IMG/VR virus record: IMGVR_UViG_3300020411_002770
Location: 1 to 40,643 of that record
Length of the DNA stretch: 40,643 nucleotides
Origin: a virus
Reading direction: 5' to 3' (one strand)
The position numbers were made by a program, and so were the translations under genes. This document shows positions 16,211 through 39,200 of this stretch, in pieces. Below the pieces are notes generated by a model, which did no database searches, had not been told where the DNA came from, and saw only the letters and a list, made by a program, of their open reading frames with translations. How positions within the stretch are numbered: position 1 is the stretch's first letter; each line of letters begins with the position of its first letter.

Positions 16211-18118
16211 TTATTCACCCTCGTTTCGGGAGAATGTATTATATTCAACAGCTTTGATGTTGGCTAATGCTCCAGAAGTATTACCTCTAAGCACTTCACC
16301 TACATTAAACTTGTAAGTGTCACCATTAGGTATTAAACTCTTAACACTAATAGTGTATTGACCTGTCTTAGGTCCAGATATCCTACTAACAGAAGTGCAC
16401 TTAACACCAGTTGTAACACCTTCTAATTGCTCTGCACCCGAAGGACTGCTCTCAACGGTATGTAGGTTCTGTGTAGTATATTCTATAATTATATCAGCAG
16501 TAGATGTATGAGTATCACCATCTCCTAATTGACCAGCAGACTGTACTGTTGCAACTAATGCATTCTGACTACCGTCATATATCTGATCCCCTATCTGTAA
16601 TAGGGTGGTGTTTTGTCCACCAAGAGTCTCCTCTATACCATATTTAGACGATGCAATACCACCATCTAGATTAATCTGGTTTTCAAAGTCTGTACCAGTG
16701 TTAACAAGGTCAATGATACCATCACCAAATCTTTGTACACCTTCACTATCAGTATACTCTTCATCATCATCTTCAAATGCTCTATTTAGGATGAGTCCTA
16801 GTGGTACAGTGAAAGTAACAATGTCACTTCCTTCCTTTTCAACTAAAACGTGAGGCTCAATACCTGTGCCAGATGATCCAGAAGTACCTGCAACGAATGC
16901 TATATTCTTTGCTTTCTCATTAGATCTACCAGCATCAATGAATGCTAATTCATCAACCTCAAAGGTTAAGTAGAGTGCTCTTTGAGCAACATCCCAGTCA
17001 TATACAATAGCAACTCGGTTGTTAGATGACTCTTCAACCCTTCTTACTTTGTCAGTAACACTAAAACTATAAGCAGATAACCCAGTATTAGGATCATCCT
17101 GTAAGTTATCTAATATAACCTTCTGGTCAAAACGGAAGTTAATACCTCTATCACATCCAGTGAAAGCATCGTATGTTGCACCGTCTACACCAGCTTCAAG
17201 TTTACCTGTATATCTAACTAACTCTCTACCAAGTAGGATTTTACCTGAACCTGGGAAAGGAGCAGTAGTTTCAACTGGTATTTCTGTTTGACTTGATGTT
17301 AGATCAGATGTTATACCTGTAAGGTTATATGTAACTGCATTTAACGACTGTCTAACTCTTGCTTCTCTAATAAGGTTAGTATCCCTAGTAAAGATAATCT
17401 CTGGAGGTGTGCTATATCCACCGCCACCTGCCAAGAGGTCAATGTTTGTAATCTTTCCGAGGTTGATAAACGCTTCGGCCGTTGCACCAGATCCACCGCC
17501 TTTTATTATCTGTATAAGAGGAGGATCTTCAAAGAATTCACCCTGATTTGTTAGAGTAATAGATGTAACCTGACCGAATGGATTAACAGCAGCAACACCA
17601 GTTGCACCCTGTCCTCCACCACCTGAAATGATAAGGTTAACGTCCTCTTCAGTGTAGTTTCTACCTTGCTCTTCAATAGAAAGACCAGTTATCAATCCTG
17701 TTACTGGTACTAATTCAGACCCTGATCCACCACCACCTTCAATACGAGCAGTAGCATTAAAATAACCATCACCAGGTGTGGTCATCTGAATGAAATCTAT
17801 ACTACCATCTTCCTTAAGGTAGACTATACCATCTGCATGGTTATCTGAACCATCATCTTCAATTACCAATTTCAATGGGTTATATCCTTCACCAGGATCT
17901 AACACCTCAACAGCAGTAATCTCCCCTGCTTCACCTTCTATGACAGGTCTCAATACAGCATCACGAATAGGTGTGCCACAATTTTCAATACGAAGTCTAG
18001 GTGGATCATTAGGATCATATCCACTCCCAGGATTAATCACATAGACATCCCTCACCCCTGATATACTATTAAATACAGGGAAGATTTGTGCTCCAGATCC
18101 AGGGACTGTTCTTGCCAT
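16211..18118 (-). CDS. GxGY-repeat virion structural protein, 635 aa
   Basis: Residues about 20-250 contain six related beta repeats, each with a strand, a turn such as PGSGY, PGEGY, PGDGY or GGGGY followed by P or N, and a second strand. Four end in Gly-rich spacers such as GGGGSGSE. Residues about 270-330 hold a module (SSQTEIPVETTAPFPGSG, IxLGRELVRYTG, GCDRGINF) also found near the end of the 2441-aa protein. The C-terminus has FNVGEVLRGNTSGALANIK, one of the VxGxTSGA modules shared with its neighbours. There is no signal peptide. Its ATG is one base after the stop of the 494-aa gene, so translation is probably coupled. I know similar proteins only as cyanophage virion structural proteins. 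A baseplate or fibre role is inferred from being next to gp8. Confidence 0.92.
   Translation of the reverse strand: MARTVPGSGAQIFPVFNSISGVRDVYVINPGSGYDPNDPPRLRIENCGTPIRDAVLRPVIEGEAGEITAVEVLDPGEGYNPLKLVIEDDGSDNHADGIVYLKEDGSIDFIQMTTPGDGYFNATARIEGGGGSGSELVPVTGLITGLSIEEQGRNYTEEDVNLIISGGGGQGATGVAAVNPFGQVTSITLTNQGEFFEDPPLIQIIKGGGSGATAEAFINLGKITNIDLLAGGGGYSTPPEIIFTRDTNLIREARVRQSLNAVTYNLTGITSDLTSSQTEIPVETTAPFPGSGKILLGRELVRYTGKLEAGVDGATYDAFTGCDRGINFRFDQKVILDNLQDDPNTGLSAYSFSVTDKVRRVEESSNNRVAIVYDWDVAQRALYLTFEVDELAFIDAGRSNEKAKNIAFVAGTSGSSGTGIEPHVLVEKEGSDIVTFTVPLGLILNRAFEDDDEEYTDSEGVQRFGDGIIDLVNTGTDFENQINLDGGIASSKYGIEETLGGQNTTLLQIGDQIYDGSQNALVATVQSAGQLGDGDTHTSTADIIIEYTTQNLHTVESSPSGAEQLEGVTTGVKCTSVSRISGPKTGQYTISVKSLIPNGDTYKFNVGEVLRGNTSGALANIKAVEYNTFSRNEGE
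17390..18080 (-). repeat. Six GxGY beta repeats in the 635-aa protein
   Basis: The repeat turns in order are PGSGYDPNDPP, PGEGYNPLK, PGDGYFNAT, QGRNYTEED, QGEFFEDPP and GGGGYSTPP, with a period of roughly 35 to 45 residues. Two of the six have lost the G-Y signature. The same repeat is inserted in gp8 and occurs as NSGDGYTSRP and PGIGYALP near the end of the giant gene. Confidence 0.75.
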
Positions 18119-18119
18119 A

Positions 18120-18390
18120 TTAGACGATTACTATATTACCAACCATTGCAGGATGGAGTGTGCATTGATAAACATAGGTTGTGCCAGCAGAAACATTTTG
18201 AGGCACAGTATAATATTGGACTCCTGTAGTAGATCCAGTAACACCAACAGATAGAGCAGCACCACCTGCTGACTGTCTTAATTCAAATGGGTGTGCTACA
18301 CCTGGACCTGAGTTGTCAAATCTGTATGTAAATCCTCTATAAACATAGATTGTTGGATTATTTGCGGATGAATCCATACCACCACCTGAG
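18120..18390 (-). other. Amicyanin-like type-1 copper-site domain at the C-terminus
   Basis: The last 90 residues read as a cupredoxin-type beta sandwich: a strand IYVYRGFTYRFDNSGPG, His438 in AHPFEL, a strand YYTVPQNVSAGTTYVYQC, then Cys481-x2-His484-x2-Met487 and a final strand VGNIVIV. The Cys-x2-His-x2-Met spacing is that of amicyanin; plastocyanin has Cys-x2-His-x4-Met. All four expected ligands are present. Known cupredoxins with this set bind one copper and transfer electrons. Copper binding in a virion protein is inference. Confidence 0.65.
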
Positions 18391-19604
18391 AATTGATAGT
18401 CAGACATGGTAGGTGCAGTAACTGTAAAACCAACTGTAGGACTCTCTACAGGATCCCATGAAGTACCATTGTATACGATATTATCATTATTGGATGGAGT
18501 AGAAGAGGTATAAAGATCTGCGTTTATAGTCAACGTGTCTGCTGTTGCAACAGTTGCAACTCCATTACCACCCGCTACGGTTAATGTAGTAGTTGCACTT
18601 CCAGCAGCAGTTGTACCACTATCACCAGCAATTGTCTGGAATATATTCTGTGATACGTTTGGAGCATCATTGGTGATTGTAAGGTTATCACCTGATATAG
18701 CAGTGCTTATACCAGTGCCACCAAGTAAATTAATAGTAGCAGTAGTGCTACTTGCTGTCTTATTTCCCGAATCACTTCCAATTACACCATAGGCATTTTG
18801 GTTTGCATCACCTAATGCCCCTGTCATGTTTATTGTGAGGGTGTCTCCTGTGATTGCAGTCGAGATATTAGTGCCTCCCGCAACTGTAAGAACATCAGTA
18901 GGAGCACTAGCAGTAGTACTGCCAGTGTCAGCAGTGATTCCTTCAAATAAGTTTTGAGTTGTACCACCGCCTCCACCAGATCCTGCCTCATCATTAGCAG
19001 GCTGCCATTTAAGATTTGAAGCGGACCATTTAAGAACTTGACCATCACTCGGACCTCCACCGACTGTCATATCTACATCATCAAGTAATCCAATACTATC
19101 TGTATTGTCAATTAACTTAGTCCATGCTGTGTTAGTTGCATAGTATGCAGCAGACTCATCAATAACAACACCAAACATTCCTTTATGATCAGTGAATGCT
19201 GGTAAATCACCAGATGTTGCAAAGTCATTAGACCATTTTAATTTTCCATCAGCACCATCAATATAGGTAAGTGCAGATCCAGTGTTTGCTGCCCAGAATT
19301 TGATATCACCACTACCATTTGGTTGTATAACTATGTCTCCATTGTTAGATGATACGATTTTCTGACCTGCTACGTCTACATCTGCTGTAAATGCAGCGAA
19401 ATGACCCTCAGTAAACTGAGCACCATTCCATACTAGAGTTTGTCCATTCGTAGGAGCACCTACGTTGACTTGTAGATTGGTATCGTTACCTAGATTGGTG
19501 TAAATCTCATCAATGACTTGATTCAATTTGATAGCACCATCTCTCAGACTGTCGCCAGTGCCGTCATTAGCGGTAGTACCAATACTGAGTGTTTGTTTAG
19601 CCAT
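18120..19604 (-). CDS. Fibre/baseplate protein with gp10-type N-terminus and C-terminal cupredoxin-like domain, 494 aa
   Basis: The N-terminus (SIGTTANDGTGDSLRDGAIK, then LNQVIDEIYTNLG) matches the start of T4 gp10 (IGNVVDDGTGDYLRKGGIK...) and the related starts of gp9. In T4 these proteins are baseplate-bound, so this end probably attaches the protein to the baseplate. Residues about 220-370 hold three repeats of about 50 residues ending in motifs like GDTLTIN. Residues about 405-494 form a cupredoxin-like domain at the very C-terminus: His438 (VAHPFELR), then Cys481, His484 and Met487 (YQCTLHPAMVGNIVIV). No clear Shine-Dalgarno sequence is visible. It sits between the YHYH gene and the 635-aa gene. 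The best guess is a baseplate-attached short fibre or spike with a metal-binding tip. Confidence 0.92.
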   Translation of the reverse strand: MAKQTLSIGTTANDGTGDSLRDGAIKLNQVIDEIYTNLGNDTNLQVNVGAPTNGQTLVWNGAQFTEGHFAAFTADVDVAGQKIVSSNNGDIVIQPNGSGDIKFWAANTGSALTYIDGADGKLKWSNDFATSGDLPAFTDHKGMFGVVIDESAAYYATNTAWTKLIDNTDSIGLLDDVDMTVGGGPSDGQVLKWSASNLKWQPANDEAGSGGGGGTTQNLFEGITADTGSTTASAPTDVLTVAGGTNISTAITGDTLTINMTGALGDANQNAYGVIGSDSGNKTASSTTATINLLGGTGISTAISGDNLTITNDAPNVSQNIFQTIAGDSGTTAAGSATTTLTVAGGNGVATVATADTLTINADLYTSSTPSNNDNIVYNGTSWDPVESPTVGFTVTAPTMSDYQFSGGGMDSSANNPTIYVYRGFTYRFDNSGPGVAHPFELRQSAGGAALSVGVTGSTTGVQYYTVPQNVSAGTTYVYQCTLHPAMVGNIVIV

Positions 19605-19628: not shown

Positions 19629-21221
19629 TTAGGTACCATCATAAGATTGTAAGGTAGAATCCATAGTAGATGATGTACTATCGAATCTATTATCAGTGCT
19701 TCCACCATCACCAGCACCAGTTACTGTCAATATTGCTGCTTGTGAATCTAATGGTGAGTTAGAAGCAGGTACTGGTGCACCATTTGGACCAGTTATACGA
19801 CATCTAAAGCGATACCCAGTCATATAGGGTAGTGCAGTTAGAGAATAGGTATCTGCGGTAGCACCTGTGATGACAGCAAATGCGAAACCACCGTCAGTAG
19901 ATCTATACCACTGGTATGATACAGGTCCGTCCTCTGGTATTACTAACTTCTGTATATTGAAGGTAGCAGTTTGACCAGAATTGACAGTAACATTCTGTGG
20001 TTGTAATGTAAATTGTAAAGTTGGAGGGATTGGAGGGTCTCCACCGTCTCCACCATCACCACCAGATGATACAGGTGCTACAGTGAACGTGGTGTCAATA
20101 GTTTCTCTGGTTGTATTACCAATGATATAAGGGAATTTTGTTATATCATTGTCATCAGGGTCTACTGTTAGGAAATATGCGTAGGTTCCAGTGGGATATT
20201 CAGGTGTAAAGCAATATCTACCGTTATGAATATCTAAATCTCCACTACCTTCGACATATTCATAGTCTTCCATGAGTGCACCAGCAGGTGGATTGTCAGA
20301 ATCCGTGCCATAATCGGGTCTACCAGGTGCTTCTTGGTCTTTAATACCGTATTGAGTCCTCATTGTACGAGTACCACTCAAATTATCGAATGGATCATCA
20401 TATCCAAAAGGACCATAGATGGGAAATCCATCAAAACATATGCCAATTATCTTAGAATGACCGTCTGGATGACGAATATTATTACCATTAAACTGGGTAT
20501 TACCATAATAATCGTTATAACTTGCCATTGTTGAATTGGCTTTCCAACAATCTAAGAAATGTGGGTCGTGATAATGGTATTCACCTGATTGTGTAGGGTG
20601 TCCACCACAATTATCTTCTCCAGAATTAACAAAAGGTGCATCTCCAGCAGCAACCCAACTGAATCCAGCAGGAGGATTGAGTCCTGATCCAGCAGAAGGG
20701 TTAAAAATAGCAACTCCATTGCCAGCAATTCCTATGTTCCCCAGTGGAGTTTGAGTTCTTCCGTTTCTGCTATCCCAATACTCATATGTACCATTAACAG
20801 GAGTTATCTCCTGTGTATCCATGATCAAATCTAATCTATCATCTGCTGCCAACCAGCACTCACCAGCAATAGAAGTAAACTCAGTGCCCTTGTAAAGATA
20901 TCTTAAGTGTAATCCATCACTAAACTTAAACATTAAGTGGTCACCAGGTTGAATATTATTCCCAGTGAATACAGTAAGATCTGTTACTGACAATGTTATT
21001 GATCGAATGAATCCATCATGCGTATAGACATTGGAGTCAAACGTCCTAGCAGTGCCAAATGTGCCACCTCTATACAAGAAATCATGATCGAAATCTTGCT
21101 CAGTAGGTACATTAGGGTTGTGATCGTTAGGAAACGTGCCATGAGCCACTGGCGATGGTAATCCATTGGATGCCACCGTCAAGACTTTAGTCGCTTCGTT
21201 GTAAGTTGCTGTTGCACTCAT
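19629..21221 (-). CDS. YHYH-domain virion protein with Ig-like domain, 530 aa
   Basis: Residues about 140-355 match the YHYH domain (I recall Pfam PF14240): GEYHYHDPHFLDCW at 213-226, HSKIIGICFDGFPIYGPFGY, NPPAGALMEDYEYVEGSGDL and NGRYCFTPEYPTGTYAYFLT. The biochemical role of this domain is not known to me; the dense His residues (216, 218, 221 and others) could bind metal. A Gly-rich linker (about 375-392) leads to an Ig-like domain at about 395-500 (LQPQNVTVNSGQTATF, VSYQWYRS, GYRFRCRIT), related to the C-terminal domain of the giant protein encoded just upstream. The tail is Ser/Thr-rich. The ATG is 8 bases after the giant gene's stop. YHYH proteins are known among T4-like cyanophage structural genes. 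Role inferred: virion decoration or host contact. Confidence 0.93.
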   Translation of the reverse strand: MSATATYNEATKVLTVASNGLPSPVAHGTFPNDHNPNVPTEQDFDHDFLYRGGTFGTARTFDSNVYTHDGFIRSITLSVTDLTVFTGNNIQPGDHLMFKFSDGLHLRYLYKGTEFTSIAGECWLAADDRLDLIMDTQEITPVNGTYEYWDSRNGRTQTPLGNIGIAGNGVAIFNPSAGSGLNPPAGFSWVAAGDAPFVNSGEDNCGGHPTQSGEYHYHDPHFLDCWKANSTMASYNDYYGNTQFNGNNIRHPDGHSKIIGICFDGFPIYGPFGYDDPFDNLSGTRTMRTQYGIKDQEAPGRPDYGTDSDNPPAGALMEDYEYVEGSGDLDIHNGRYCFTPEYPTGTYAYFLTVDPDDNDITKFPYIIGNTTRETIDTTFTVAPVSSGGDGGDGGDPPIPPTLQFTLQPQNVTVNSGQTATFNIQKLVIPEDGPVSYQWYRSTDGGFAFAVITGATADTYSLTALPYMTGYRFRCRITGPNGAPVPASNSPLDSQAAILTVTGAGDGGSTDNRFDSTSSTMDSTLQSYDGT

Positions 21222-21229
21222 GGAGTTAT

Positions 21230-24200
21230 TTAGATGTCATCAAAGATTTGTGTTGGTAAGAAGTTGCTTAGGACTGTAGCACCAGTCTGGACGCTCAATA
21301 CAGCAGATAGTGAGTAAACTGGAGTTGCACCAGATGCAGTGATCGCAACACGATATTCGTCACTGTCGTCTGCCTGTGTAGTATTTGGAGTATTGTATGT
21401 TGACTGGTTAGCACCAATGATGTTGCTCCATGTCTGTGTGCCATACTCCTTCTTCTGCCACTGATAATTCATTGTCTGATCGTTAGTTACGGTAGAGACA
21501 ACTGTGAATGAAGCAGAGTAACCTTGGTTAACTGTTACGTTAACTGGGTCTTGTGATATGAAGATTGTGCCAGGATCGATATCTCCAGCACCACCTGTGT
21601 ATTCAGATCCTTCGCCAGCGAGTACGTCAAATCCACCGTTAATAGGAGCACCTTCAGGAGTTGTGAAACTATCAGGAACTTCATTATCGATAGCAACTGT
21701 TGGTAATGCGTATCCGATACCAGGAGTCTTAACATCAATTCTAGTAACACCCATCAATGCCTTGATACGAGCGTCAAATCCAGAAGAGGAGATAACGTCA
21801 ACGTTAGGACGTGAAGTATAACCATCACCAGAGTTGGTTAGGTTAGCATTTGTAATCTGTCCAGATGTGATATCAGCGATAGCAGCAGCGTTACGACCCT
21901 TAACAGATCCAGTGTACTCGAATGTGATTAGTGAGTTTGAAGACTCAATTAGAGCAACCTCACGAGCAAATTCTTCACCGTCTATTTCAAGTTTGTCACC
22001 AGCTTCGATTGGTGGGACAACGGTTGCTGCGATAACGTCTGCGTCAGATCCAATGTATGAGAAACCAACGAATGTTGATCCCGCACGTGGGACTTCAGCG
22101 AAGATTAATCGTGAACCAACGATCTCGTATGCGAGTCCAGGTTCCTGTATAACACCGTTAAGTGATACGATAATGTTATTCTCAGGACGGATAACGTTAG
22201 ATGAAACACCTTCAGTTAGAGTCAAGGAGTAGAATAATCCAGATCTCTTAAGGTTGAAGGAAGATCTCAATGAATCAAACTCATAACTGATATCGTCTAA
22301 CTGACGTAATTTACCAACGTAGTAACCAACGAATTGTGATCCGATTACAGGTGGCTCAGCAAACTGAATCTTGTCTGAGAATGCAACGTAAGAGTTGTTA
22401 CCGCCAGGAGGCTGTAGGATACCATTAACGAATGCTAGTAAGTGACCAGCTGGATCTGGGAAGTATGCTTCACCATTAGAGATGGTTAAATCAAACTGTG
22501 TTTGCTGACCATCAAATCCTCTGAAGTATCTGTCAACACGACCTTCGAGTGTGCGAGCAGATGAAACTGCACCACCCCATCCGTAGTCGGAAATGACTGA
22601 CATATTATCAACGAATGCCCCAGAAGCATCTTCTACCCAAATTTCAGCAGTGATACCAACTTGCTCGATTGATACGACCTTAGCGTATGATGAGTAAGTT
22701 GTTGTAGTTACGTTAGTAACGTTAGCATATATGCTTGGGAAGTTAGATCCAAGATCAATCTTACCAATGTTGTTTGTGCCTTGAGTTACAGCATCGATTG
22801 TCTCACCTGTGCCTACTGGAACTACGTTACCAACCCAAAGTTTGTGTATACCGTAGTTAGGATCAGTATTCTCAAGCTCTAATCCATTAATGTATTTTGT
22901 TACAGTTGCTTTGAATCCTGGATTCTTCTCAGTTGTACCTTGTAGGAGTGATACTTCATCACCAACACGGAAGGTATCATTAGTGCCGATATCAACGATT
23001 GCGACTCCAAGATCTAACTCATATACCGCAGTACCATGTATGTACTGGTTAAGTTGAATCTGTGTACCAGTTATACCCTTAACTGAAAGGATGTATGCAG
23101 TAACACTACCGTAGATAACGTCACCAGGATCCCACTGAGCATCAATGGTTTCAACATCAATCGTGATACGACCACCAGTATTACCTGTAAGTGATCCAGA
23201 CTTATTGACATAGTTGTCAATGTATCCTTCAGTATTTGATTCTTTAGAGAAGAACCAATCACCTGAAGCAAATGCACCTCTAGAGACATTAAGTAAGAAT
23301 CTATCAGTTGGGGCACCAGCAGTACCTGTTGCACCAGATGTCTGACCTTCTAATACATCATTCTGAGCTATAGTACCAGCGATAGTTTGTAGTTTAACTA
23401 ATGATGTGCCATCAGTAGACTTCTTAGTCTGCATTACAAAACCAGTATTTGATCCAGCACCTTGGACTTGGACAGTCTCACCATTCAAGAAGACTTCATA
23501 CTCACCACCCTGTGTGGTTGACATACCAGTGATAGGATAATGTGTAAAGATCTTACGGATAGTTGCTTCATTATCCTGAATTCTTCCTATCTCAGACTCA
23601 GCACCTGAAACACTACCGTAGATAACGTCAGCAGGATTGAATCCACCTTGGATTGGAGTATCAGAAGGATCGATAGCATATACTGGAGCGTTACGAGTAA
23701 TACCACTTCTCTGTACAACTGCCATGATTTGTGATCCAGAATTACTTGTATCAACTTGTAATACTCTGAATCTTCCATCGTGGATGTAAGAAGCACCAAT
23801 TTCAAACCACTCAGCAGTAGCAGTCAAACAATAGAAATAAGGTTGACCTGTCAATCCACTTAGGGATGTATCAGATGCAGGGATGTAACTTAATACATCA
23901 CCACGTCTGAAGTTGTTAGCACGATTAATTCTAATTCTATATTCAGCACGGTCAAATCCAACTTCAACTTCAGGAGTTAGTGTAACCAATGCAGGGTCAG
24001 TATTGTAATCCCAACCTACCTCATACTTGGTAACTCTGTTAACAGCATCAGTAGATGCAACGAATGTAACTCTTGCTTCTGTTGGGAAGGATGATCTTTC
24101 TAGAGCAAACTCAATTGGGTTAAGTGAAGAGTCAATTATAAACTCAACTGCTTCCTGATTCCACTCAAGTCTTCCAGCTGGTTGCCATACGTCATAGTTG

Positions 24201-27200
24201 TCCCAAACACTATCAGTACCAACAAGATACATGATACTCTTAATGTATTCTCTACATCTGGTTAGAGCAAATAGGATCTGAGATCTAACAACATCTTGGA
24301 ATGCAATGAAATTACCTTCACCATCAAACCAGTCTTGTGTCATTCTGAATGATCCAGCATTACCACCTGTAATCAAGTCATAACGGACTGCCTTAAGGAC
24401 ATCATTACAGAAGTCAATAGTTAAGTTAGTAGATGGGTAACTTGCTAGTGTATCTGAGAATGCTCTTCCAGCAATTGCTTGCTGATTGAAGAGAATCATG
24501 TTAGCGATAATCTTATTATTATATGTGCCAGCACCTAGAGTGGTTGACATACTATCGAATAATGTATCGATAGCAGACTGGACGTTATAACATGTACCTG
24601 ACTGGTATACGGTATTGGTATATGCAGATGGGAATGTCTTAGTTACACTGTTAACAAGATAGTTTTGATTGTTATTTGCTGCTTGAGATATAGTGTTGAT
24701 GTATATGTCAGCAAGTGTATTAATTGCAGAAGCAGTTTCATTACATGTGCCAACCCAGTTACCATTAGCATCTTGACCACCACCAGATACATCGTATGTA
24801 ATTGTTAGATCTCTAGCAACTACATCTGGAGTGTACTTGACGGGCCATACAGTTGGTAGTGTGTAACTTCTGTTTGCAATATTACTTGGGTTAGTAAATG
24901 CATCAGTTGCAAAGTTAACAAGAGTAGTAAGTTCGTTTTCTACATTTAGAGATTCATTTCCAGTGTATGCAGGATCAACTAGACGTGATCTATAGTAATC
25001 TAGATCAGATCTTGTAGGCCATGCCCATGACTTAACATGCTGTACTGGTAGTTTCTGACCATCAGCATAGTCTGTAACACGTGGATATGTGTGGTTAGTC
25101 TGGTTGCTATCCTGTGAGCATGTAAAGGTTAATGAATTGCTATCAATGATAACAGCATCATCAGTACCAAGAGTATGATTTGCAACAGTTAGAGTTAACT
25201 GACCACTTGTAGGCTCATAGTATGCGTCTGTAGGTGTTAATTGTGTACCATCATTGGCAACAGTAATACAGTTGGATAGAGCAGATACGAAAGTATGTCT
25301 ATAATTACCACCCTGTATTAACGCACCAGCATTAGCACTTACAAATGTATGCTGATATGTATTTCCAGCTGGTGACTTACCAACGTTAATAGTAATAGTG
25401 CCGTCTTGTTTCTTAAGACCCTTCTTCTTAGCAGATACGAATGTATGAGTACCAAGGAATGTAGAAGGAATCATATTGAATCCTAATACACCAACATCGA
25501 ATGTTGAGGTAGATACATTATGTACTGGTAACCACTGGTTACTTGCATGATCAGTAGGTCTTGGATATGTGTGAGGAGTTTCATCCTTATCCAGATCACA
25601 TGTAAATGCCAATGAGAAGTCATCAAACATTACATAATCATTTGCCTTAACAACTCCATTAGTATCAGCAGATACGAATGTGTGACGATAACTACCACCA
25701 CCTATTACAGCACCAGCAAGAGCACTTACGAATGTATGATCGTATAGATCAGCAGTAGCAGCAACATCTACATCAACAGTAATCTTACCAGACTGTCTAT
25801 GTAAACCGTTATGCTTCGCATCAGCAAATGTATGTGTGTAGTTACCACCAACGGTAACACCGTTTGTAGCAGCAGAGTGGAATGTATGAGTATACTCACC
25901 ACCAACAGTAACAATAGATCTCTGGACGTTAGATGCGTTAGCAGAAACAAATGTATGGACTGTTGTATTTGTAGAAGGAATGTCTGTTAATACTTGGACA
26001 TCGAATAGATCACAATTAACATTAGAGATCTTCAACCATCTTCCACTTGAAGGATCAGTAGATCTTGGATATGAATGATTAGTAACGTTGTTATCCTTAC
26101 CACATGTGAAGGTTAATGAATTGTCTGCAATCTTAACATACTCACCGTTAATGAATCCATTGCCCACTAGGATACCGTTTGCAGTAGCAGACTGGAATAC
26201 ATGAGCAGTAGTATCTGTGATAGCACCTTGACCACCGTTAACGTTAACAGTAATTGTTGTGCCAGATACAGCAGTGATGTCTAACTCTTGATTATATGCA
26301 TAATCAGCACCAGATGTTGTGGCAGCACCAGCAGCACGTGGATATGTCTTAGTAGTTACGTTTCCATCTCCACCATAATCACAAGTGAATGTTAGTGAGT
26401 TAGGTAACAATCTGATAGTATCATCAGTAGTCAGAGTATGTGCTCCGATTGTTAATTCTAAAGTACCAGATGTTGGGTTGTATGCAGCACCCGTAGCAGT
26501 CTTCTTATCTTTAGGTACAGAGAGTGTCATGAATCCAGTAGCAGGATTGTATGATGCAGTCTCTGTGGAGTATGTGTTATTAGCGTTTTGGAATACGTGA
26601 GTTGTAGTGTTAGAAGATGTACCAACATCAACTGTAATACCATCAGCAGTAACAGCAGTAATCTCAACTCTATTATTATATGCAGGGTCATTGCCTGTAG
26701 CACCACCCCATCCTGTAGGACGTGGATACCAGTGATCAGAATTTTGTGAATCTTGATCACAACGGAAGACCATTGATTTGTTTGCAATCTTAACGTAGTT
26801 ACCAACCTTAAGTTGATGGGTACCGATGGTCATTGTTAGAAGACCAGTATTAGGTACGTAAGATGCAGCACTTACTCCATAACCTTTAGCATGTGATTCT
26901 CCAACATCAAGTTTGATTGTTGAATTCTCCATCATGATGCCACCATCAGCAGCACTTACAAATGTGTGTGCATAAGATCCACCACCCTTAACTACACCTC
27001 TAATAATTGCACCTGTTGCAGCAGATTGGAAGTTATGAGTTGTTGTGTTAGATGATGTACCAACGTTAACTGAGAAGGAATTAGCATCAACATAAGTAAC
27101 ACTTAACCATGCATTATTAGATGCAGGATCTTGCTTTCTAGGATATGCATGATCGCTTCCAAAACTATCTTGCTGACATCTGAATACGATAGACTCATCC

Positions 27201-30200
27201 TTAATTTGAATCTTATCTCCAGTAACAAATGGATGACCAGCAACTGTCAATACCAACTCACCAGATCCAGGTGTGAATGTTGCACCTGTAGGTGTGAATG
27301 CATTTACAGATCTTACAAATGTATGCTGAGAAGTATTAGAAGAAATACCAACATTAACTACAACGCTATCAGCAGTAACTGATTGAATTGGAATAGAAGT
27401 ATCATAATATGGATCATCAGCAGTAGCACCACCTTGACCATTTGCACGAGGATAGAAGTGCTCAGTTGCGTTATTATCTAAAAGACACTTGAATACTAAT
27501 GACTGATTTTCAATCCACAATGATTCATGTGCAACCTTAAGTCCATTAGGAGCAGCAGTTACAAATGTATGTGCATATCCACCACCAGAAATTACAGCAC
27601 CAGCAGCAGTACCACCAGCCCAGTTGTGTGTAGTTTCATCAGTGATTGCTCCCTGATTTCCGTTAACGTTAACTGTGATTGTTGTAGCAGTCTTAGCAGT
27701 AATTGGTAGGGCAGTATCATATGCATAGTCCTTACCATTTGCGGTAGAAGCACCAGATGATCTTGGATATGTCTTCTGAGTTGTGTTACCATCACCATTG
27801 AAATCACAAGTGAATGTTAATGAATTAGGTTTGATCTTAATGCTATCACCAACATCTAATGTATGAGATCCAATGGTAAGTTCCATGTTACCTGATGTTG
27901 GATTATAATTAGCAGCCGTTACGTTATGTGTAGACTGAGGTGAAGTACCTACATTGACTTTAAATGTATCATAAGTGACATCACTGATTGGCATCCACTG
28001 ATTAAACTGAGGATCAGTTGTTCTAGGATAAGTCTTAGTGGATGTATTTCCATCCATTCCACAAGTGAATGATAATGAATCTTGAGCAATCTTAACTCTG
28101 TCACCAATAGTGAATCCATGAGCAGGAATTGTTACAAGTAAAGTACCAGCAATAGGATCGTAATCTGCATTAGTAATAGTATGAGTGGATCCACCTTTAT
28201 AACCATGTGGTCCAATCTTGAGTGTCATATCACCTGTAGTAGGCTCATATGTTGCATCAGAAACAAGATAATTAGCACGAGTTGTAGTACCGATCTGGAC
28301 GTTAAAGTTGTTACCAGCAACACCAGATACTTCTAACCACTTATCATATGCAGGATCAATTCCTTCACGAGGATAAGAATGATTAGTAGCATTGCCATCC
28401 ATATCACAAGACATTGTGAGTGAGTTTGGCTTCAACTTAATTCTATTACCATTACTGAATGGATTATTCAATACTGTTAATGTTAATACACCAGTCTCGG
28501 CATTATATGTTGCACCAGATGCTGTGTATTCTGCATGTCCTACATCCTTAATTTCTATAGAATGATCGTATGCTCTATCTCTCTTATGAGTTACACCACC
28601 ACCAACAGCAGAAACAAATGTATGACTGAATGATCCACCTTTTCTGATTGTACCTCTTAAGATTGAATTAACCTTAGCAGTTACAAATGTATGTGTGGAA
28701 GTATTTGTAGAAGGTACCTTATCAAGTACTTGGACTCTAAATGTATCTTGAGTTACATTAGAAATTGTTAACCACTTACCAGATGCAGGATCACCATGTC
28801 TAGGATAAGCATGCTCAGTTGCATGGTCATCTTTAGCACATGTGAAGATCAATGCATTATCTTCAATCAATACTTGCTCACCATCTAACATTCCATGATC
28901 AGGAATTGTGATGGTCATAACACCAGATGCACCACTATAAGTTACATTGGTTGGTGTCTTACCTACAGCAGGTTTGAAGATATGAGCATGATTAGAAGAT
29001 CCACTAGGTGAAGAATTAACGTTAACAGTTATAGTGCTATCATCAACAGCAGTAACATTAACAGCATCACGGAATGCAGGATCGTCAGCAGTTGCACCAC
29101 CAACACCATTTGCTCTTGGATATGTGTGGTCAGATCCATGACCATCTTGAGCACATGTAAATGTCATTGAGTACTCATTGATATAGATGCTATCGTTAAC
29201 TTCTATACCATGATCAGGACCAACAGTAATTACCATATTACCGTTAGAAGCATTATATTCTACATTCTGAGGATCGAAACTTACAAACTCAGACTTACCA
29301 ACAAAAATGTCAATAGTGTTTTCAGTTGCATTCTCTACAGGCTTCCACTTACCACTAATAGGATCAGAAGATCTTGGATATGTCTTAGTTGATGTATTAC
29401 CATCCATTGTGCAATTCAATGACAATGCATTGTCTGCAATCTTAATAAGAGATCCATTATCCATTCCATGATTAGTAATAGTAAGAGTTAGATAACCTGT
29501 CTCACCATTGAAATCTGCACCTGTAGGTGTGAATGAATCAATAGTTGTTCTTGGATAAGCATGTTGTGATCCATTCTGATCCATATCACATGTAAATGTG
29601 ACAGCACCATCAGCAAGTTTTACATGCTGACCTTGCTTCAATGAATGAGGACCAATATTAAGCTCAAGATGTCCTGTGTAAGGATCATAAGAAGCATCAG
29701 TAGGTGTGAATTGTGAAGCAGCAGTTGTGCCAACATTAAGCTCAAATGTATCTTGAGTTACGTTTTCAATTTGTATCCACTTACCACTGATAGGATCTGT
29801 ACCTCTAGGATATGCATGATCGGATGAATTATCATCCATTGTGCAATTCATATGAAGAGCATAATCATCTAACTTGATGAAGTCACCATTAGAGAATCCA
29901 TGCTTACTAACTGTTAGTGCCAATACACCTGTTGAAGGAGTATAAGTTGCTCCACTTGGAGTATGTCTTGTTACACCATCATCAATAATTCTTAGAGACT
30001 CATTGTATGCAGGATCAGTAATTCTAGGATATGTGTGCTCAGTAGAATTACCATCTTTAGAGCATGTGAATGTTAGAGAATTAGCAGCAATCTTAATGCT
30101 ATCGTTACCCTTCATCATTGTTGCAACAGTAATACTCTTAGGTACTGCTGATACAAATGTATGAGTAGAAGTGTTAGAAGAAGGTATGTTGAATAATACT

Positions 30201-33200
30201 TGAACGTCAAATGTATCTTCAGTGACGTTACTTACCTTCATCCACTCATCACTGAATGGATCATTCTTTCTAGGATAAGAGTGATTAGTTTGGTTACTAT
30301 CCTGTGTGCAGGTCATAGTAACAAATCCATCTTGTACCTTAATTCTGCCACCATTCTGTAGACCATGCTTCGCAGAAGTAATGGTCATAACACCTGTAGT
30401 TGGATTGTATGCAACGTTGGTTGGTGTTAGTTGTGCAGGAGCAACAAACTTATGACTGTAGTTACCACCAGTTACAACTTGTGCCCTGGTAATACCATTA
30501 GGAGTTGCAGACTTGAAGGTATGTAATGTTGTATTTGTAGATGGAATATTCTCTAATACTTGGACATCAAATGTGTCATCTGTGCAATTAGAAATTGTTA
30601 TCCACTTACCACTTACAGGGTCACTGCTTCTTGGATAAGCATGGTCGGATCCATTACTATCTTGTAAGCATGTGAATACAAGTGAATTGTTATTGATCTT
30701 AATGCTCTCTCCATCATGGAATCCATGATTAGGAACTGTGATCGTCATAACACCTGTAGCTGGTAGATAGTTTGCATCAGTAGCAGTATAAGTTTCAGTA
30801 CCAGGAATGAAGGTATGAGCATACTGACCACCAGCAACTAATGCACCACTTACTGCACTCTGGAATGTGTGAGTTGTTGGGTTAGTAATTTGTCCATTAC
30901 CAACGTCAAGAGTAACAGTACCATTTTGTCTGTGTAATGAATTAGATACAACAGAAACGAATGTATGATCGTATACATCATTAACAGCAGACTTACCAAC
31001 TTGGACAGAGAATCCAGTAGGACTTACATTACGGATTGGTAACCACTGTCTGTATGTTGGGTCAGATCTTCTTGGATAAGTATGGTTTGATTGATTGTTA
31101 TCCTTACTGCAAGTAAATGTAATTGCATTCTCATCAAATCTTACAAAGTCACGTGCATGATAAATTGCACCTGTAGCAATATTATTGCAAACGTGAGTTG
31201 TAGTATTAGAGATAGGTGAGTCACCATAAAGATTACCAACCTGTAGATCGTATGTGTTACTACCGATATTGAATGCCTTTAACCACTTACCAGAAACAGG
31301 ATCAGAAGGTCTTGGATATAAGTGATCAGTTGCCTGACTATCTTTATCACATCTGAATGTTAAGACGCTATCTCTGATCATCATCATGTCACCATTCTTC
31401 ACGCTGTGACCATTCTGAGTTAACCTTAATATACCTGTAGTAGGATAGAAGGTGCACATTGTAGGTGTAAGCTCATTAGGTCCTAAGAAACTATTAGCAA
31501 CCGTAATTTGCATACTACCCTCAGTTGGGTTGTATGTAATATCAGTAGGTGTATGATTGGTTTCACCAATTTCCCATACAGGAATATTACTATCGTAGAA
31601 GTGATCCTTCTTATGAGTTATGCAGTTATTAGTTGCAGATAAGAAGTTATGAGCTGTAACATGAGTAGAAGGTATTACATCAAGTACTTCAACGTTGAAA
31701 CTATTAGCAGTCGTATCTTGTATTTGTACCCACTTACCAGCAACAGGGTCTGTTGCTCTTGGATATAGATGAGCAGAAACAATAATACCAGTTACACATT
31801 CTGAATCAGCAGAGATAAAGTTATGAGTACTTGTATCTGTGATAGCACCTTGACCACCATTGAAGTTAACAAATACGCTGTCAGCAGATACTGAATCAAT
31901 TGGTAAGTATGTATTATATGCATAATCCTTACCGTTTGAAGTTGCAGCACCTGTTGCACGAGGATATTTCTTCTGAGTTGTATAACCATCACCATTAAAG
32001 TCACATGTAAATGTGAGAGACTCAGGTGAAATCTGAATCATATCATTGGTGGTTAAACCATGATATAAACCAAGAGTTAATTCTGCTACACCTGTTGTAG
32101 GATTGTAATCTATAGCAGTAGGAGTATGTCTTGAAATATCTTTCTTACAGCTGAATGATAGAGACTCATCAGCAATCTTCACATATGAATATGGTAAGAA
32201 TCCATGGTTAGCAACATGGAATGTAAGATGACCTGTATTAGGATCATAATCTACATGAGATGGAGTATGAGTAGTAACAGCAGATCTAGGATATGTGTGG
32301 TTGCTTGAATTGCCATCAGCAGCACATCTGAATGTTAATCCATCATCCTTAATTCTTACACTATCACCAGCATGTCTAACACAGTTAGCTACAGATGTTG
32401 AATAGGTATGATCATAAATTCCACCAGTTATAATAGCTGCTCTATGGACACAATTAGGTGTGCAACCAACAAATGTGTGTAGAGTTGTATTACTCTGAGG
32501 AATGTCCACTAGTACTTGGACATCAAAGCTTTGTGTAGTTACGTTAGTAACTTCAAACCAATTATCTGAGAATGGATCAGAAGGTCTTGGATAGGTATGT
32601 ACTGTAGCATGATTATCAAAACCACAAGTAAATTTCAAGGAGTTATTATCAATCTTGATCCTATCTCCATTTTCAAATCCATGACCATCGATAGTTAGAT
32701 TAAGAATACCTGTTGTTGGATTGTATACAGCACTTTCTGGAGTAAATCCTACATGTGGTATAAAGGTATGATCTGTAGTATCAGAAGATTGACCAACATC
32801 AAGAGTTATAGTTCCATCCTTCTTAGTAATTCCACCAACTGTTCCTTGGACAAATGTATGAGCAGTAGTGTTGGTTGAAGGAGCATAACTTAATACTTGG
32901 ACATCAAATGTGTAAGTACTTACATTAGATACTGCCAACCATCTATTTGCATATGGGTCAGTTGCTCTAGGATATGGATGATTAGATCCATTGTTATCTT
33001 CTAAGCAAGTGAATGTTACAGCACCCTCTTTAAACTTAACTTCATCACCATTACTCAATCCATGAGCAGCATCAGTGGTGATACTCATAATACCTGTTGT
33101 AGGATTATATGATGTACCTGTAGTTGCAGTTAAAGGTGATCCATCATGAATGATTGGACATGGCTTGTTATAGAATGGGTCAGCACCACCGTTACCAGAG

Positions 33201-36200
33201 AAGTTAGATCCTGAAGATCTAGGATATGGGTGTAGTGACTGATGAGCATCTAAGAAACAAGTAAATGTTAGAGACTCTTTTGCAAATCTTATGCTCTGAC
33301 CATTACGAAGATTGTGATCACCAATAGTGATCTTCATGTGTCCTGTTACAGGAGTAAATTCAGCAGCAGTAACTAAGAATGGAATTTCAGGTGTGCGTCC
33401 AACAAAGACATCAAACTCATCTTTAGATACATTCCTAATATCCATCCACTTATCACTCATTGGATCAGTAGAACGAGGATATGCATGGACTGTAGCATTG
33501 TTGTCCATTGAGCAAGTGAAACTTACTCCACCATCAGCAACCTTAACGAAGTCTCCAGCAGAGAATCCGTGGTCAGCAATCCTCAATCTCATTAATCCCT
33601 TCTTACCATCATATGATGCAGTGGATATACTATGAACTGAAGACTGACGAAGAGTTGTTTTTCTATCTGTTGTTAATACTAACTTACCATCAGCAGGAGT
33701 AAATGTAGCACCACTTACATCATATTGTTGCTCAGGTGTCTTACCTACGTTAACAACAATAGTGTCATTGGTAACTCCAACAATAGGTGTTGGCTCATTG
33801 TGTATTGGGTCAACGTGACGAGGATATGCATGGACAGAAGCATGATCATCCATTGCACAAGTAAATGCTAATGATTGAGATGCAATCTTAATGTTAGTAC
33901 CTACTGCCAAACCATGACCAGATCCAACTGTCAATTCTAATTGACCAGTAGTAGAGTTAAATGTAGCAGCAGTTGGATTCCAACCTACAGTTGGAGACTC
34001 TCCAACATTAACAGTAAATGTGCCACCAGGAATATCAGATTCAACAACATCTAACCACTTACCACTGCAAGGATCAGTAGATCTTGGATATACATGCTCA
34101 CTATAATAGTTGTCCATGGAGCATGTGAATGTCATGGAGTTATCAAAGATTTGTATCTGCTCACCCTTAGTGATCTTATGACCAGGAACTGTCAGAGTAA
34201 GTAGACCCTTAGTAGCAACATATTCTGCATGAGATGCAACGTGCATATCTGCACCAACAAATCTATGTTGACCGATATCTAATTCTAATTCACCATCATT
34301 CTGATTATAAGTTGCATCAGATACGTTATATTCAATCTTAGGTGTCTGACCAACGTTAACAGTGAAACTATTTGTAGTTACTGCTTCTACTAACATCCAA
34401 GCATCACCAGCAGGATCCTTTGCTCTAGGATATCCATGCTTAGTAGAATGATTATCTTGAGCACAAGTGAATATTATAGATCCATTCTTGATTTGTATTT
34501 GATCACCAGTTTGGAATCCATGTGCAGCAGACTGACATACTAATAATCCAGTATCAGGATCATATGTAGCATCAGATATAGTATGCATTGTAGAGTCAGT
34601 CATACCATGGTTAGGTAGAGTGATTGACATACTACCATTTTCAGGATTGTATGATGCATCCTCTACAGTATGAGCTGTTGCTCCAACTGCGATAACTTCT
34701 ACAGCAGCATTACCAGCTGGGTCACCAGATCTAGGATAAGAATGAGTTGAAGCATTATTATCTTGATCACATGTAAAGTTTATAGAGTTAGTTGCAAGTG
34801 ATAAGAAAGTACCAACAGTATGATTATGTGATCCAATATTGATCACCATATCTCCATTACTACTATCATAAGCAGCATGTGAAATATCATATGCAATCTT
34901 AGGTGCAGGACCAACATTAACTGTAAAGGTGTTAATAGCAGCAGACTCACCAGCAACTAGAGATCCACCACCAATAGCATATCCAGCGAAGTTAGAAGAA
35001 GCGAATATTCCACCGCCACCTGTCAAACCAGTATAGTTTGCACCAGGAGTTGTTGCTTCACCAACAGGTGTGCCATCAATCCAAAGTTTTACTCTACCAC
35101 TACCAGTACCTAAGTTACCACCAATACGAATCTCCCATACTAATTCATGGTCACCATCATCAAAGTATGTTGATAAGTTACTGATTTGTAAGTCAAGCAT
35201 TGCAAGACCATTATCATTATGGTTTGCACCACCACTGTAACTATTGGTACCATCACCAGCACGGAGTCTTAAATATGTGCCATTATCTCTAATACCAAAC
35301 CATGTTCCTGAAGTAGAATCACCTGCTTCAAATAAACAACAATCTATTGGGTTAGAAGGTAGTTTTGTAACACAACGGAATACTGCATCTTCATCAGTTA
35401 CAATTCCAGTGCCACTATCAGTTGTAGAAATCTTATCTTCACCAGCAATGAATGATCTAGTTACAAGACTATTAGGTTGTCCAACAATAATACCTGTATC
35501 AGCAATAGAATTGAATAGTGAATTATTAGGTCTTGGGACAGCATCATAGAATCTTTGATCAACATTATGACCAGCAGCATTAGTAATAACCTGACCCTTC
35601 ATGGCACGAATGGCATATTCTTTTGCCTTATTCATGATCCAGATGGTCTCAGTAGATTGAGCAGCAACGTGATCTAAAGCACCATTATAGGTTGTATAGA
35701 ATTCAGCAGCATACTGCATCCAGTTGTTACCACCATACTTAAGGTTAAACGCTAATGATCTAAGAATATCAGTAACGTCATGGACACAGTTAGCTGGACC
35801 TCCAGGAATTAGGAGATTCGGGAATTGTACAAGTCCCGCAGCAACCGCTTGCTCCGCAATATAGCGTATATTTCCATCAATAGCATCTCCACATTTTTGA
35901 TACATCACTTCACGTGGGTTTTGCTCATATGATTGTACTGGTGTTGTTTGTAAATCAGTACCTTCAATGTAGTCTCTACCGAATGCATTACGCATGGTAA
36001 GAGTCATGATATCTCTTAATATCTTAACTACAGTTATAGATGCTTCCCACTCACCCTCAATATGCTTAAGGGAATTATTTTCTGTCTCAACATATAATGC
36101 AGCAGCATCATATGTCTTCTCGTTACAATCAAAGCGAAGGTCATGAACCGCTGCCTCGATCATATCAAGTACGTCATCCTCACAGTTAACTGGACCTCCA

Positions 36201-39200
36201 GGAATCTGTAGATTTTCATACTTAGACAAGTCATTCATAATTGCTACGCATTCTTTAGCAATTATTCTTCTATTATTCCAAATAACATCAGCAGCGTCAA
36301 GGTATCTGTCGTTAGAGTTTCTACCAGTTGGACCTTGAGGATATGCTTCAGTATCAAGTACTATATTCTCATCTCTATATGCTGCTCTTGCAGTGTATAA
36401 AGGACTATAATATTCTTCCTGAATATATGAAGGAGCAATAGCACCTAACTCAGAAGCAGCTTCACCTGAAGATAACAATAAGTTGTTGATTGCCTTTAAG
36501 CAAAGAAGTTTAGTATGCTCAAATGCATCAAGCATTGGATTAAGCTCAGATTCAACATGAATCACATTTTGCTGACTATCAAGATACTTATCAATAACTG
36601 CTTCAGTCTGATATGTGCCACCTGTAGCAAGGTCAGCAATTACAGCAGGAAGTATAAAGTCCTTGATATCTCTTTCACAATATGGCTGACCATATCCAGG
36701 CATCTCTAGGAAGTCATATACGGTGCCATCGATATCTTTCTCATACTTATTCTGAATAAATCCAGCAACCTCTTCTGCGATATAATCTCTATTCTTCCAA
36801 AGTTGATAACCACCTTCTCTGAATCTCTGATCCATAGGAGCAACAACCTTAAGTAAATTACTACCTAAGAGGTTAATCTCATCAGTTGTATTAGATGAAG
36901 CAGGTGATGCAAAATTATTAGGTATTCTCAACCTAGTACTATATTCTCCATTAAGATCAGTAGATGTGGTTGTAACAACATCTATACAGATCTTGAATAC
37001 TTCATTCCATGTATAGAGAGATTGTAGAATCTCAGCAGCGATGTGATCTAACTTACCACTAGCAGTTAAGTAAGTTCTTGCTGTGTAGATTGTATGGAAG
37101 TCTCCACCTTCTTGAAGGTCTTTAATAAGTGCTCCAAGGATGTAATCCTTTGTATCTCTTATACAAAGGTTAGTACCACCATATACATTATTGCCAGGAT
37201 CATCACCACGAATAGTAAAGTCTGGGAATGCAACCTTCATTCTACCGACTGCTTCTTCAGCAATCCAAGCAGCGTTAAGGTCGATAATTTCAGCACATCT
37301 CTTCTGCTCTGCTCTACCAGTATCAACGTCTTCTACAATAATATCTCTTTCTGCATAATCAATAGACTTGGCAGTTGCAGATGAAGAATTCTGACCACAG
37401 AATGTAGCATAGGTATCAGTAGTTGAGCATACAAATGGTGCTTCACCATTTAGACCAAATACAATCTTTTCATCAGTATAATCAAGTGTATTAGGTGAAG
37501 TGAAGTTTGCTTGACGATCACCTACTCCTTTTTTAATTACGAAATTATCAATATGACCAGCCCAACTATTTGCTAAGTTAAAGTCTGCTCCAATATATGC
37601 ACCACCATATAGGTAATCATTAGTGTCAACGTAGTTAGATCCAACTTGTGATCCATTTACATATGCCTGAGTAACACCACTTGTCCTACAGACTGAAATA
37701 TGATACCAAGTACCTGTGGTAGCAAATACATCTGTACTAAGGATAGTATTGGTCGTGCCGTTATATACCTTTAATTTCTGTCCATCCATCAAGATATTCA
37801 AACCTTGAGCAGCAGTTAGTCTTCTGAAGTCTACAAGTACTTGTGTGCCGACATTAGAAGCAGGACGGATCCAACCTTCAATTGTGAAGTCTCCAAGTCC
37901 AAATTCAAAGTCTTTACTCTCTGTAGCAACTATATGACCGTTAGTTGGAATATAGATGGATTTTTCTCCTTCTAATTCAGCTTTCTTGATTATTACACTT
38001 TGAGAGCAATTTGTGTTTGTGAGAGTTGAGTTAGTAAGATATTCTCCATTTTGGAAGGTACCAGTAATTGGTCCTGCAAATAACCACTTAAGACCAGAAT
38101 TAACTCCAACTGCACTGAATACTGCACCAGAAGTGATACCTTTGATTTGATCGTTAGTTATGAATAATCCAGTTGACTTATCCTTATATGCAAGTTTTGT
38201 AGTCCTTACAGTCTCATTAGCAACGAATGTGCCGTCAGAAACAAGTGCAAGAGCATTAACGTTGGTTAGGTTACCAGCAGTCATTGCAGTTGTTGCAATA
38301 CCACTTAGAGTGTCAATATAAGATTTAACGTTAGCACAGTTGTTAACATCCTGATTATTACCAGATGCATAGTTTGCATCGTAAGTATTAGCAGGAGCAA
38401 CACCACCAGAGTAAGTAGTGGGATCATTAAGGTTATAACCAGGAGTATTGAGTTCCTTCCAATACATTAGGTTATTGATCGCTGAATACATCAACGTCCT
38501 TGCAGAGTTAAATGCCCAAACTGCTTCTGCTTCTTCACCAACAATACCGTTAGTTAGAGGGACACCAGCATCATCGAAGAATTTTTTAGTAAATTCAACG
38601 GTATTATAGTTACCACCAGATCCTACATCTTCAGCAATAGCATCGATGAAGTATCCAAGGTCACGACGACATTTCTCTTGATGAGGTGAATATGTACCTT
38701 CTTGCTCATCAGGTAGCTCAGTTAGAGAAGAAATATTTAATGCTTCGTCGATGAACTCCCAGAGTGTTGAAAGTGCCGATTGTACATCTGAGCAGTTCTC
38801 AGAATCAGTATTAGAGGTATTAGAGCCAGCAGTTCCATAAGGATCATTAGGTGATGGGTCAGCAGTAATTGTAAGGTCTTGATACGCAACCCAAGAGTCA
38901 CCAGAGTTTACAGCATTAATTGTGCCTGAATAACCGTTAGCAAGAGCAACTAAACAACGATCTTTAGCCTTTTCGTATGCAAAGCGAGTTTCGGCCGCTT
39001 GGGCATTAACGTAGGTTAAATTACCGTTACTATCGAAGAATTGTTGGATAAACTTACGAGCATAACGATTACCACCTGCATACATGTCAATAGTGATTGC
39101 ATCGATGAATAATCCGATATCTCTCTTACATTTGTCATCTGAAGGAATAGAAGATGAAGGATACTGAGTCTTCATGTCATCGAATGCCATTCCGATGATT

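Follow-up and report, generated by a model that had tools for sequence, protein, structure and literature searches.

A tandem array of predicted beta-barrel modules in a giant gp7-position protein of a marine T4-like cyanophage, a putative glycan-contacting arm

In this study, a window of 40,643 bases, the IMG/VR virus record IMGVR_UViG_3300020411_002770, was found to encode a giant virion protein with a long array of small modules built around the motif C..D.....H.YPR. It is proposed that this array forms a chain of approximately 31 small beta-barrels towards the C-terminus of a baseplate-wedge protein of the gp7 type and that it probably acts as a glycan-contacting arm; to this putative role we assign a probability of about 0.6. 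Judged from its sequence and gene position, the giant protein appears to be the gp7-position baseplate-wedge or virion protein of a marine T4-like cyanophage. The features of the giant gene on which the argument is built are as follows:

25004-34891, minus strand: module array with 31 YPR sites and 36 profile matches (motif count and profile)
21230-40642, minus strand: giant virion protein at the gp7 position, at least 6470 residues, with the 5' end and N-terminus off the contig (phrog_701 and phrog_18802, 'virion structural protein')
37535-37768, minus strand: Laminin_G_3/concanavalin-A-like (LamG) domain, N-terminal to the array in the giant protein (Pfam PF13385, E 1.3e-8, above the cut-off)
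21233-25045, minus strand: conserved C-terminal region of the giant protein past the array (positions 5178-6122 of the 6136 of phrog_701, E 8e-256)

The array was confirmed to be real. An earlier note on this DNA had described 31 regular modules, and 31 YPR sites were indeed found in frame on the minus strand, with first bases from 34738 down to 25087. The motif C..D.....H.YPR fitted 25 of the 31 sites, or 27 when Lys was permitted in place of His (as in CDFNGDGNTTQKTYPR and CGMDGNTSTKTYPR), and the stricter F.C..D.....H.YPR fitted 22, while the motif count was 0 in 1000 shuffles of the array's own 3325 residues. A profile search returned 36 matches in the array, partial modules included, and several array units were half-modules. 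Two such half-modules, consisting of the first two strands only, lay between full modules at approximately 34595-34672 and 34256-34330 (open reading frame residues 1991-2016 and 2105-2129). The period of about 107 residues given earlier held as a mean but not as a fixed period; the YPR-to-YPR spacing in the window ranged from 59 to 168 residues, and across relatives the spacing had modes near 80-90, 100-110 and 140 residues. Likewise, the HGxxxGDxIKI and HTFVSA elements were not equally regular flanks of the module. The former constitutes beta2-beta3 of the barrel and is integral to the module, whereas the latter is a linker hairpin confined to long-spaced modules. In addition, a calcium-loop-like DxNGDG loop was present in some modules.

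The structure of the module was predicted with AlphaFold2 on two module pairs, using alignments of 57 and 76 sequences:

30077-30802, minus strand: long-spaced pair, modules 14-15 (mean predicted local distance difference test score, pLDDT, 89.1)
29471-29977, minus strand: short-spaced pair, modules 17-18, with the same strand order (mean pLDDT 89.0)

Each modelled module had about seven strands, with the Cys ending strand 4, the Asp in a short turn, and the His/Lys and Tyr in strand 5. In the model of modules 14-15, the strands occupied positions 9-13, 18-22, 33-36, 41-45 (with the Cys at the end), 53-56, 67-71 and 77-81; the short turn was at 46-48 (Asp48), His54 and Tyr56 were in strand 53-56, and the HTF element formed the linker hairpin 94-99/104-106. 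The module is thus confidently predicted to be small and all-beta.

Comparisons with known families pointed to two small barrels. Weak matches to Pfam E1_FCCH (PF16190) were given by 8 of 76 and 10 of 57 alignment members (best E 8e-7, in one relative), and weak matches to End_beta_barrel (PF12195) by 14 of 76 and 13 of 57 (best E 3e-5). In the window itself, the best E1_FCCH score was 19.6 bits against a cut-off of 29.5 bits, and the modelled pair scored 13.1 bits against an End_beta_barrel cut-off of 35 bits. When the module profile was compared with the whole 1064-residue K1F tailspike, the best match fell at 441-465, within End_beta_barrel (424-506), and scored 26 versus at most 16.6 in 20 shuffles; this match is a 25-residue motif (Hgl..Gd.I) and covers the motif length only. 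Foldseek was queried with the module pairs, whose flexibility dilutes the score. Against the PDB, the short pair matched UBA6 (three chains at probability 0.72-0.77, E about 1, root-mean-square deviation 3.1 over 75 columns) and the K1F endosialidase 1v0e (probability 0.60, E not significant), and chains of F1 ATP synthase and of a sialic acid esterase scored similarly. Against predicted viral structures, the matches were baseplate and fibre proteins of cyanophages. Only the agreement between sequence and structure gives weight to the FCCH/endosialidase lead, and the fold, described earlier as unknown, now has weak but consistent pointers, although a PDB sequence search (with one segment and also with the profile) gave nothing credible and no solved homologue.

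The module core is therefore probably the same kind of small beta-barrel as the E1 FCCH domain and the K1F endosialidase barrel, a supported but weak assignment to a kind of barrel and not to a family. The endosialidase barrel (PF12195, phage K1F, PDB 1v0e) has the HGL..GD.I motif in common with the module and a weak fold match, but it is present in a single copy, lacks the C..D..H.YPR hairpin at the aligned place and gave weak scores only. The E1 FCCH domain (PF16190, UBA6 structures) matches the first half of the profile in sequence and weakly in fold, but it is an insert of a cellular enzyme, forms no array and likewise gave weak scores only. The C..D..H/K.YPR part is read, again with weak support, as a cyanophage-specific hairpin added on the barrel. 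Other folds were considered and set aside. For an IPT/TIG or Ig-like fold, TIG was matched by 1-3 members at E of about 0.001-0.01, no Pfam match was above the cut-off, and the Met and plexin IPT chains appeared at E 0.01-0.07 with a template-modelling score below 0.2 over the pair. The Cthe_2159 carbohydrate-binding family (PF14262) was matched by 11-13 members, up to E 2e-6 and below the cut-off, with an alignment that, where shown, covered a stretch of about 40 residues of the 262-position profile; it was treated as composition.

The conservation of the hairpin was examined with a masked profile in which the whole C-to-D58 core was hidden, and which collected 2873 modules, 484 of them non-redundant. 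Although this profile was blind to the Cys, the motif Cys was present in 484 of 484 non-redundant modules. YPR was present in 471; the other 13 retained the Cys and several retained the His too. In the full-profile set of 431 non-redundant modules, position 51 was occupied by His in 76% of cases and by Lys in 21%, and Asp45, D58 and H23 were conserved in 91%, 99% and 95%, respectively. Moreover, in comparison with a relative at 69% identity, the motif Cys was retained in 29 of 29 cases versus 6 of 13 for other Cys residues. The array dN/dS (the ratio of nonsynonymous to synonymous substitution rates) was 0.16-0.30 among relatives at 67-97% identity, and the modules are under purifying selection. 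Hence, of the three residues once regarded as nearly constant, the Cys is invariant and the Asp is frequent, but the His is not constant; the view that the module holds more conserved chemistry than a fibrous repeat needs was borne out by the Cys.

These data bear on what the hairpin does. The earlier note had suggested that the Cys, Asp and His could form a metal site; in this reading, each hairpin would bind one metal ion through these residues. In the models, a single hairpin of 10 residues does carry all three, and the DxNGDG loop of some modules is calcium-like; however, a metal site is disfavoured and very unlikely because the His is so often replaced by Lys, which is unusual as a metal ligand, and the Asp is missing in about 9% of modules, partly via loop-length changes. 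A catalytic Cys-His-Asp triad was rejected since the His is often Lys and no enzyme family matches, and catalysis by the hairpin is unlikely. A covalent cross-link was also considered, in which the single invariant Cys of a module would pair with the Cys of another chain or bond to the opposite His/Lys or Tyr, giving a shear-resistant arm. The retention of the Cys even in modules lacking YPR, and its constancy relative to other Cys residues, speak for such a link, and phage Milano offers a precedent with a tail and baseplate joined by disulfides (PMC10811340). On the other hand, one Cys per module leaves no intramodule disulfide partner, the L38-x-F40-x-C42 alternation suggests a core-facing Cys, and T4 gp7 is monomeric (PMC3004832), so that a cross-link is judged unlikely, if less so than the metal site. 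Still more speculative than a simple cross-link is the idea that the hairpin is a self-made protein bond or inter-chain lock acting through the invariant Cys and repeated 31-36 times, which would give a covalently stiffened megadalton arm peculiar to marine cyanophages. Most likely, the hairpin locks a loop of the barrel and shapes its contact surface.

The history of the array was followed in a relative, G001, a 199 kb contig whose DUF4815 protein is 88% identical to that of the window. G001 encodes a photosystem reaction-centre gene and is therefore a cyanophage. It holds the whole giant gene, which encodes 9914 residues (about 1.08 MDa) and lies directly after the gp6 gene, a position that the window does not reach. 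The giant protein of the window, which extends past the contig end, is longer than the part visible to the earlier note. For 29 of the 31 window modules, the best partner was at the corresponding place in G001. The mean identity to the best-matching G001 module was 67%, versus a median of 38% between modules of one array. The modules are colinear orthologues whose fixed order and positional identity have been kept between phages. Together with the selection data, this colinear orthology indicates that the chain is old and ordered rather than a labile repeat. Recent tandem duplication was rejected, as no tandem repeats were found in the array at the DNA level and orthologues were closer than paralogues.

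The same observations are compatible with a pure spacer or ruler, in which the modules would bind nothing and would set the arm length and stiffness that place the flanking adhesion domains. The fixed order, the near-constant module number of the closest relatives (34-36 profile matches), the colinear orthology under purifying selection and the adhesion-type LamG domain adjoining the array all agree with such a role. Nevertheless, the invariant Cys, YPR, D58 and H/K exceed the apparent needs of a spacer, and tail-fibre genes of other cyanophages, in which length seems unimportant, hold 1-9 modules. A spacer is accordingly regarded as possible, and as the strongest of the alternatives, but less probable than the glycan-contacting arm.

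The assignment of the giant protein to the gp7 position was drawn from full-length relatives. The T4-gp7 signature DFYxSKGTxxSxxxLFKxLFGE was found in the N-terminal part of the G001 giant protein, and in G001 and isolates a segment like DFYISKGTKLSTQYLFKILFGEDVD in this part aligned to T4 gp7 starting at residue 733. With hhalign, the score versus T4 gp7 was 45, with a maximum of 21 in 20 shuffles of T4 gp7; the alignment was limited to the 36-residue signature (P 1.3e-4). What is common to T4 gp7 and the full-length relatives is therefore the DFYxSKGxxxSxxxLFKxLFGE signature and the slot after gp6. In contrast, T4 gp7 has 1032 residues and none of these modules, and the remaining sequence is without detectable similarity. 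The Prochlorococcus phage P-RSM6 has the same gene order, with a 25.7 kb gene at the giant-gene position, and in other isolates genes with the module occupy the gp7 slot or are found among the tail-fibre genes. The same module occurs in the gp7 'baseplate wedge initiator' of P-SSM2, P-HM2 and S-SSM7 and in the P-RSM6 virion structural protein, in the slot after or beside gp6. These proteins have approximately 7-21 profile matches in 3001 to about 8570 residues, whereas the clade of the window has 31-36 modules in about 9900 residues.

At the rim of the T4 baseplate, gp7 occurs as six monomers (PMC3004832), and the chain is therefore probably a long arm on each wedge. In phage K1F, sialic acid is bound by the barrel, which also tunes the discrimination between hosts (PMC12632334). 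From the rim position of T4 gp7, the sialic acid binding of K1F and the LamG domain before the array, we infer a long arm of glycan-binding-type barrels. Such an arm would be of the order of 100 nm if about 4 nm per module is assumed. It may hold out the LamG-type and other adhesion domains, and its barrels may contact host surface glycans at many points. Within each barrel, the hairpin, with the Cys at a strand end, the Asp in the turn and the His/Lys and Tyr in the next strand, would lock the loop and shape the contact surface.

Several points weigh against this proposal. The window lacks the N-terminus of the giant protein and a host marker gene, and the gp7 label draws on a short signature and gene position only. 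Furthermore, in one published comparison cyanomyophages are held to lack gp7 and to have VrlC in its place (PMC7029224); the slot of the DUF4815 gene carries the VrlC annotation in P-RSM4 and P-HM2. The predicted template-modelling score (pTM) of 0.51-0.58 makes the relative placement of two modules uncertain, and the arm geometry is not predicted. Foldseek against the PDB returned no solved structure with E below 0.001, and the FCCH and endosialidase matches are partial over the module, with those of the window below the Pfam cut-offs.

Cyanophages kill a large share of the photosynthesisers of the ocean, yet the way in which contractile-tailed cyanophages hold on to their hosts has been described only poorly; our literature search, confined to the library at hand, found no account of the module or of a cyanomyovirus baseplate structure. 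With the present data, a fold can be hypothesised for a cyanophage-only block, gp7 can be named as its gene slot and the Cys as a single residue to mutate, and functional tests become possible for a part of marine viral protein space that is abundant but unlabelled.

The module is a cyanophage-specific unit. Matches were found in 325 of 50,697 phage records, and even at E 0.01 all of these were either cyanophages, among them phages of Synechococcus and Prochlorococcus, or marine single-cell viruses. Two scans of viral contigs retrieved 76 and 42 module-bearing loci, and a plasmid search gave no module match. A genome scan, which reaches close relatives only, returned one matching contig (L118, PBPH01000042.1) from a Red Sea bin named Euryarchaeota, with the phage protein at 81% identity; this contig is most simply explained as mis-binned cyanophage DNA. 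Among isolates, the module was present in gp7-slot, tail-fibre and short-tail-fibre genes, each of which gave 2 to 21 profile matches.

The earlier note did not recognise the module as a named family, and the array indeed gave no match above the cut-off in Pfam and NCBIfam. However, the module was found in PHROGs 5342 (tail fibre protein), 1276 (unknown), 701 and 18802 (both virion structural protein), as well as in the cyanophage records described above. The PHROG 5342 and 701 matches were significant, with E down to 4e-87 for array pieces and 8e-256 for the C-terminal part. The module is thus already in phage clusters, but either unlabelled or as 'tail fibre / virion structural'. None of the four PHROGs was set up as a module family and none has a named function. 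The match of the full-length relative to phrog_701 begins near the N-terminus of this relative, at residue 7, and that of the window protein extends up to the C-terminal part; in this profile, the array has its best matches within one stretch of about 130 positions, versus 31-36 units here.

The genes of the window form a baseplate cluster of a T4-like marine cyanophage. Beside the giant gene, the cluster contains the following:

19629-21221, minus strand: YHYH-domain virion protein (PF14240, E 1e-34; phrog_25852)
18120-19604, minus strand: gp9/gp10-like baseplate wedge tail-fibre connector (PF07880, E 7e-9; phrog_677, E 2e-139)
16211-18118, minus strand: structural protein phrog_22827, similar to the baseplate wedge phrog_708
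14641-16176, minus strand: gp8-like baseplate wedge subunit (PF09215, E 2e-18; phrog_438)
7311-14636, minus strand: DUF4815 protein in the slot after gp8 (PF16075; phrog_358)
3-6722, minus strand: fibre protein with an Mtd_N domain, phrog_697, running off the contig end

In G001, a YHYH domain lies within the giant protein (L120, 16433-19432), and is followed by a separate gene in the slot that corresponds to the YHYH gene at 19629-21221. Another feature of the window's giant protein is a second repeated unit, helical-looking and with a Cys-x-x-Asp of its own, at approximately 35500-39150 and 24400. About 6-8 copies were counted by eye, of which CKRDIGLFIDAITIDMYAGGN, CRRDLGYFIDAIAEDVGSGGN, CIRDTKDYILGALIKDLQEGGD and CERDIKDFILPAVIADLATGGT are examples, and one stretch of this unit scored near the Pfam phycobilisome cut-off. 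Finally, genes for 2OG-Fe(II) oxygenases, at some loci accompanied by tryptophan halogenases, were observed near module-bearing structural genes at L001, L127, L129 and L130 (P-SSM2, Sf-FP1, S-CAM4 and S-RIM44), and these enzymes could modify virion proteins.

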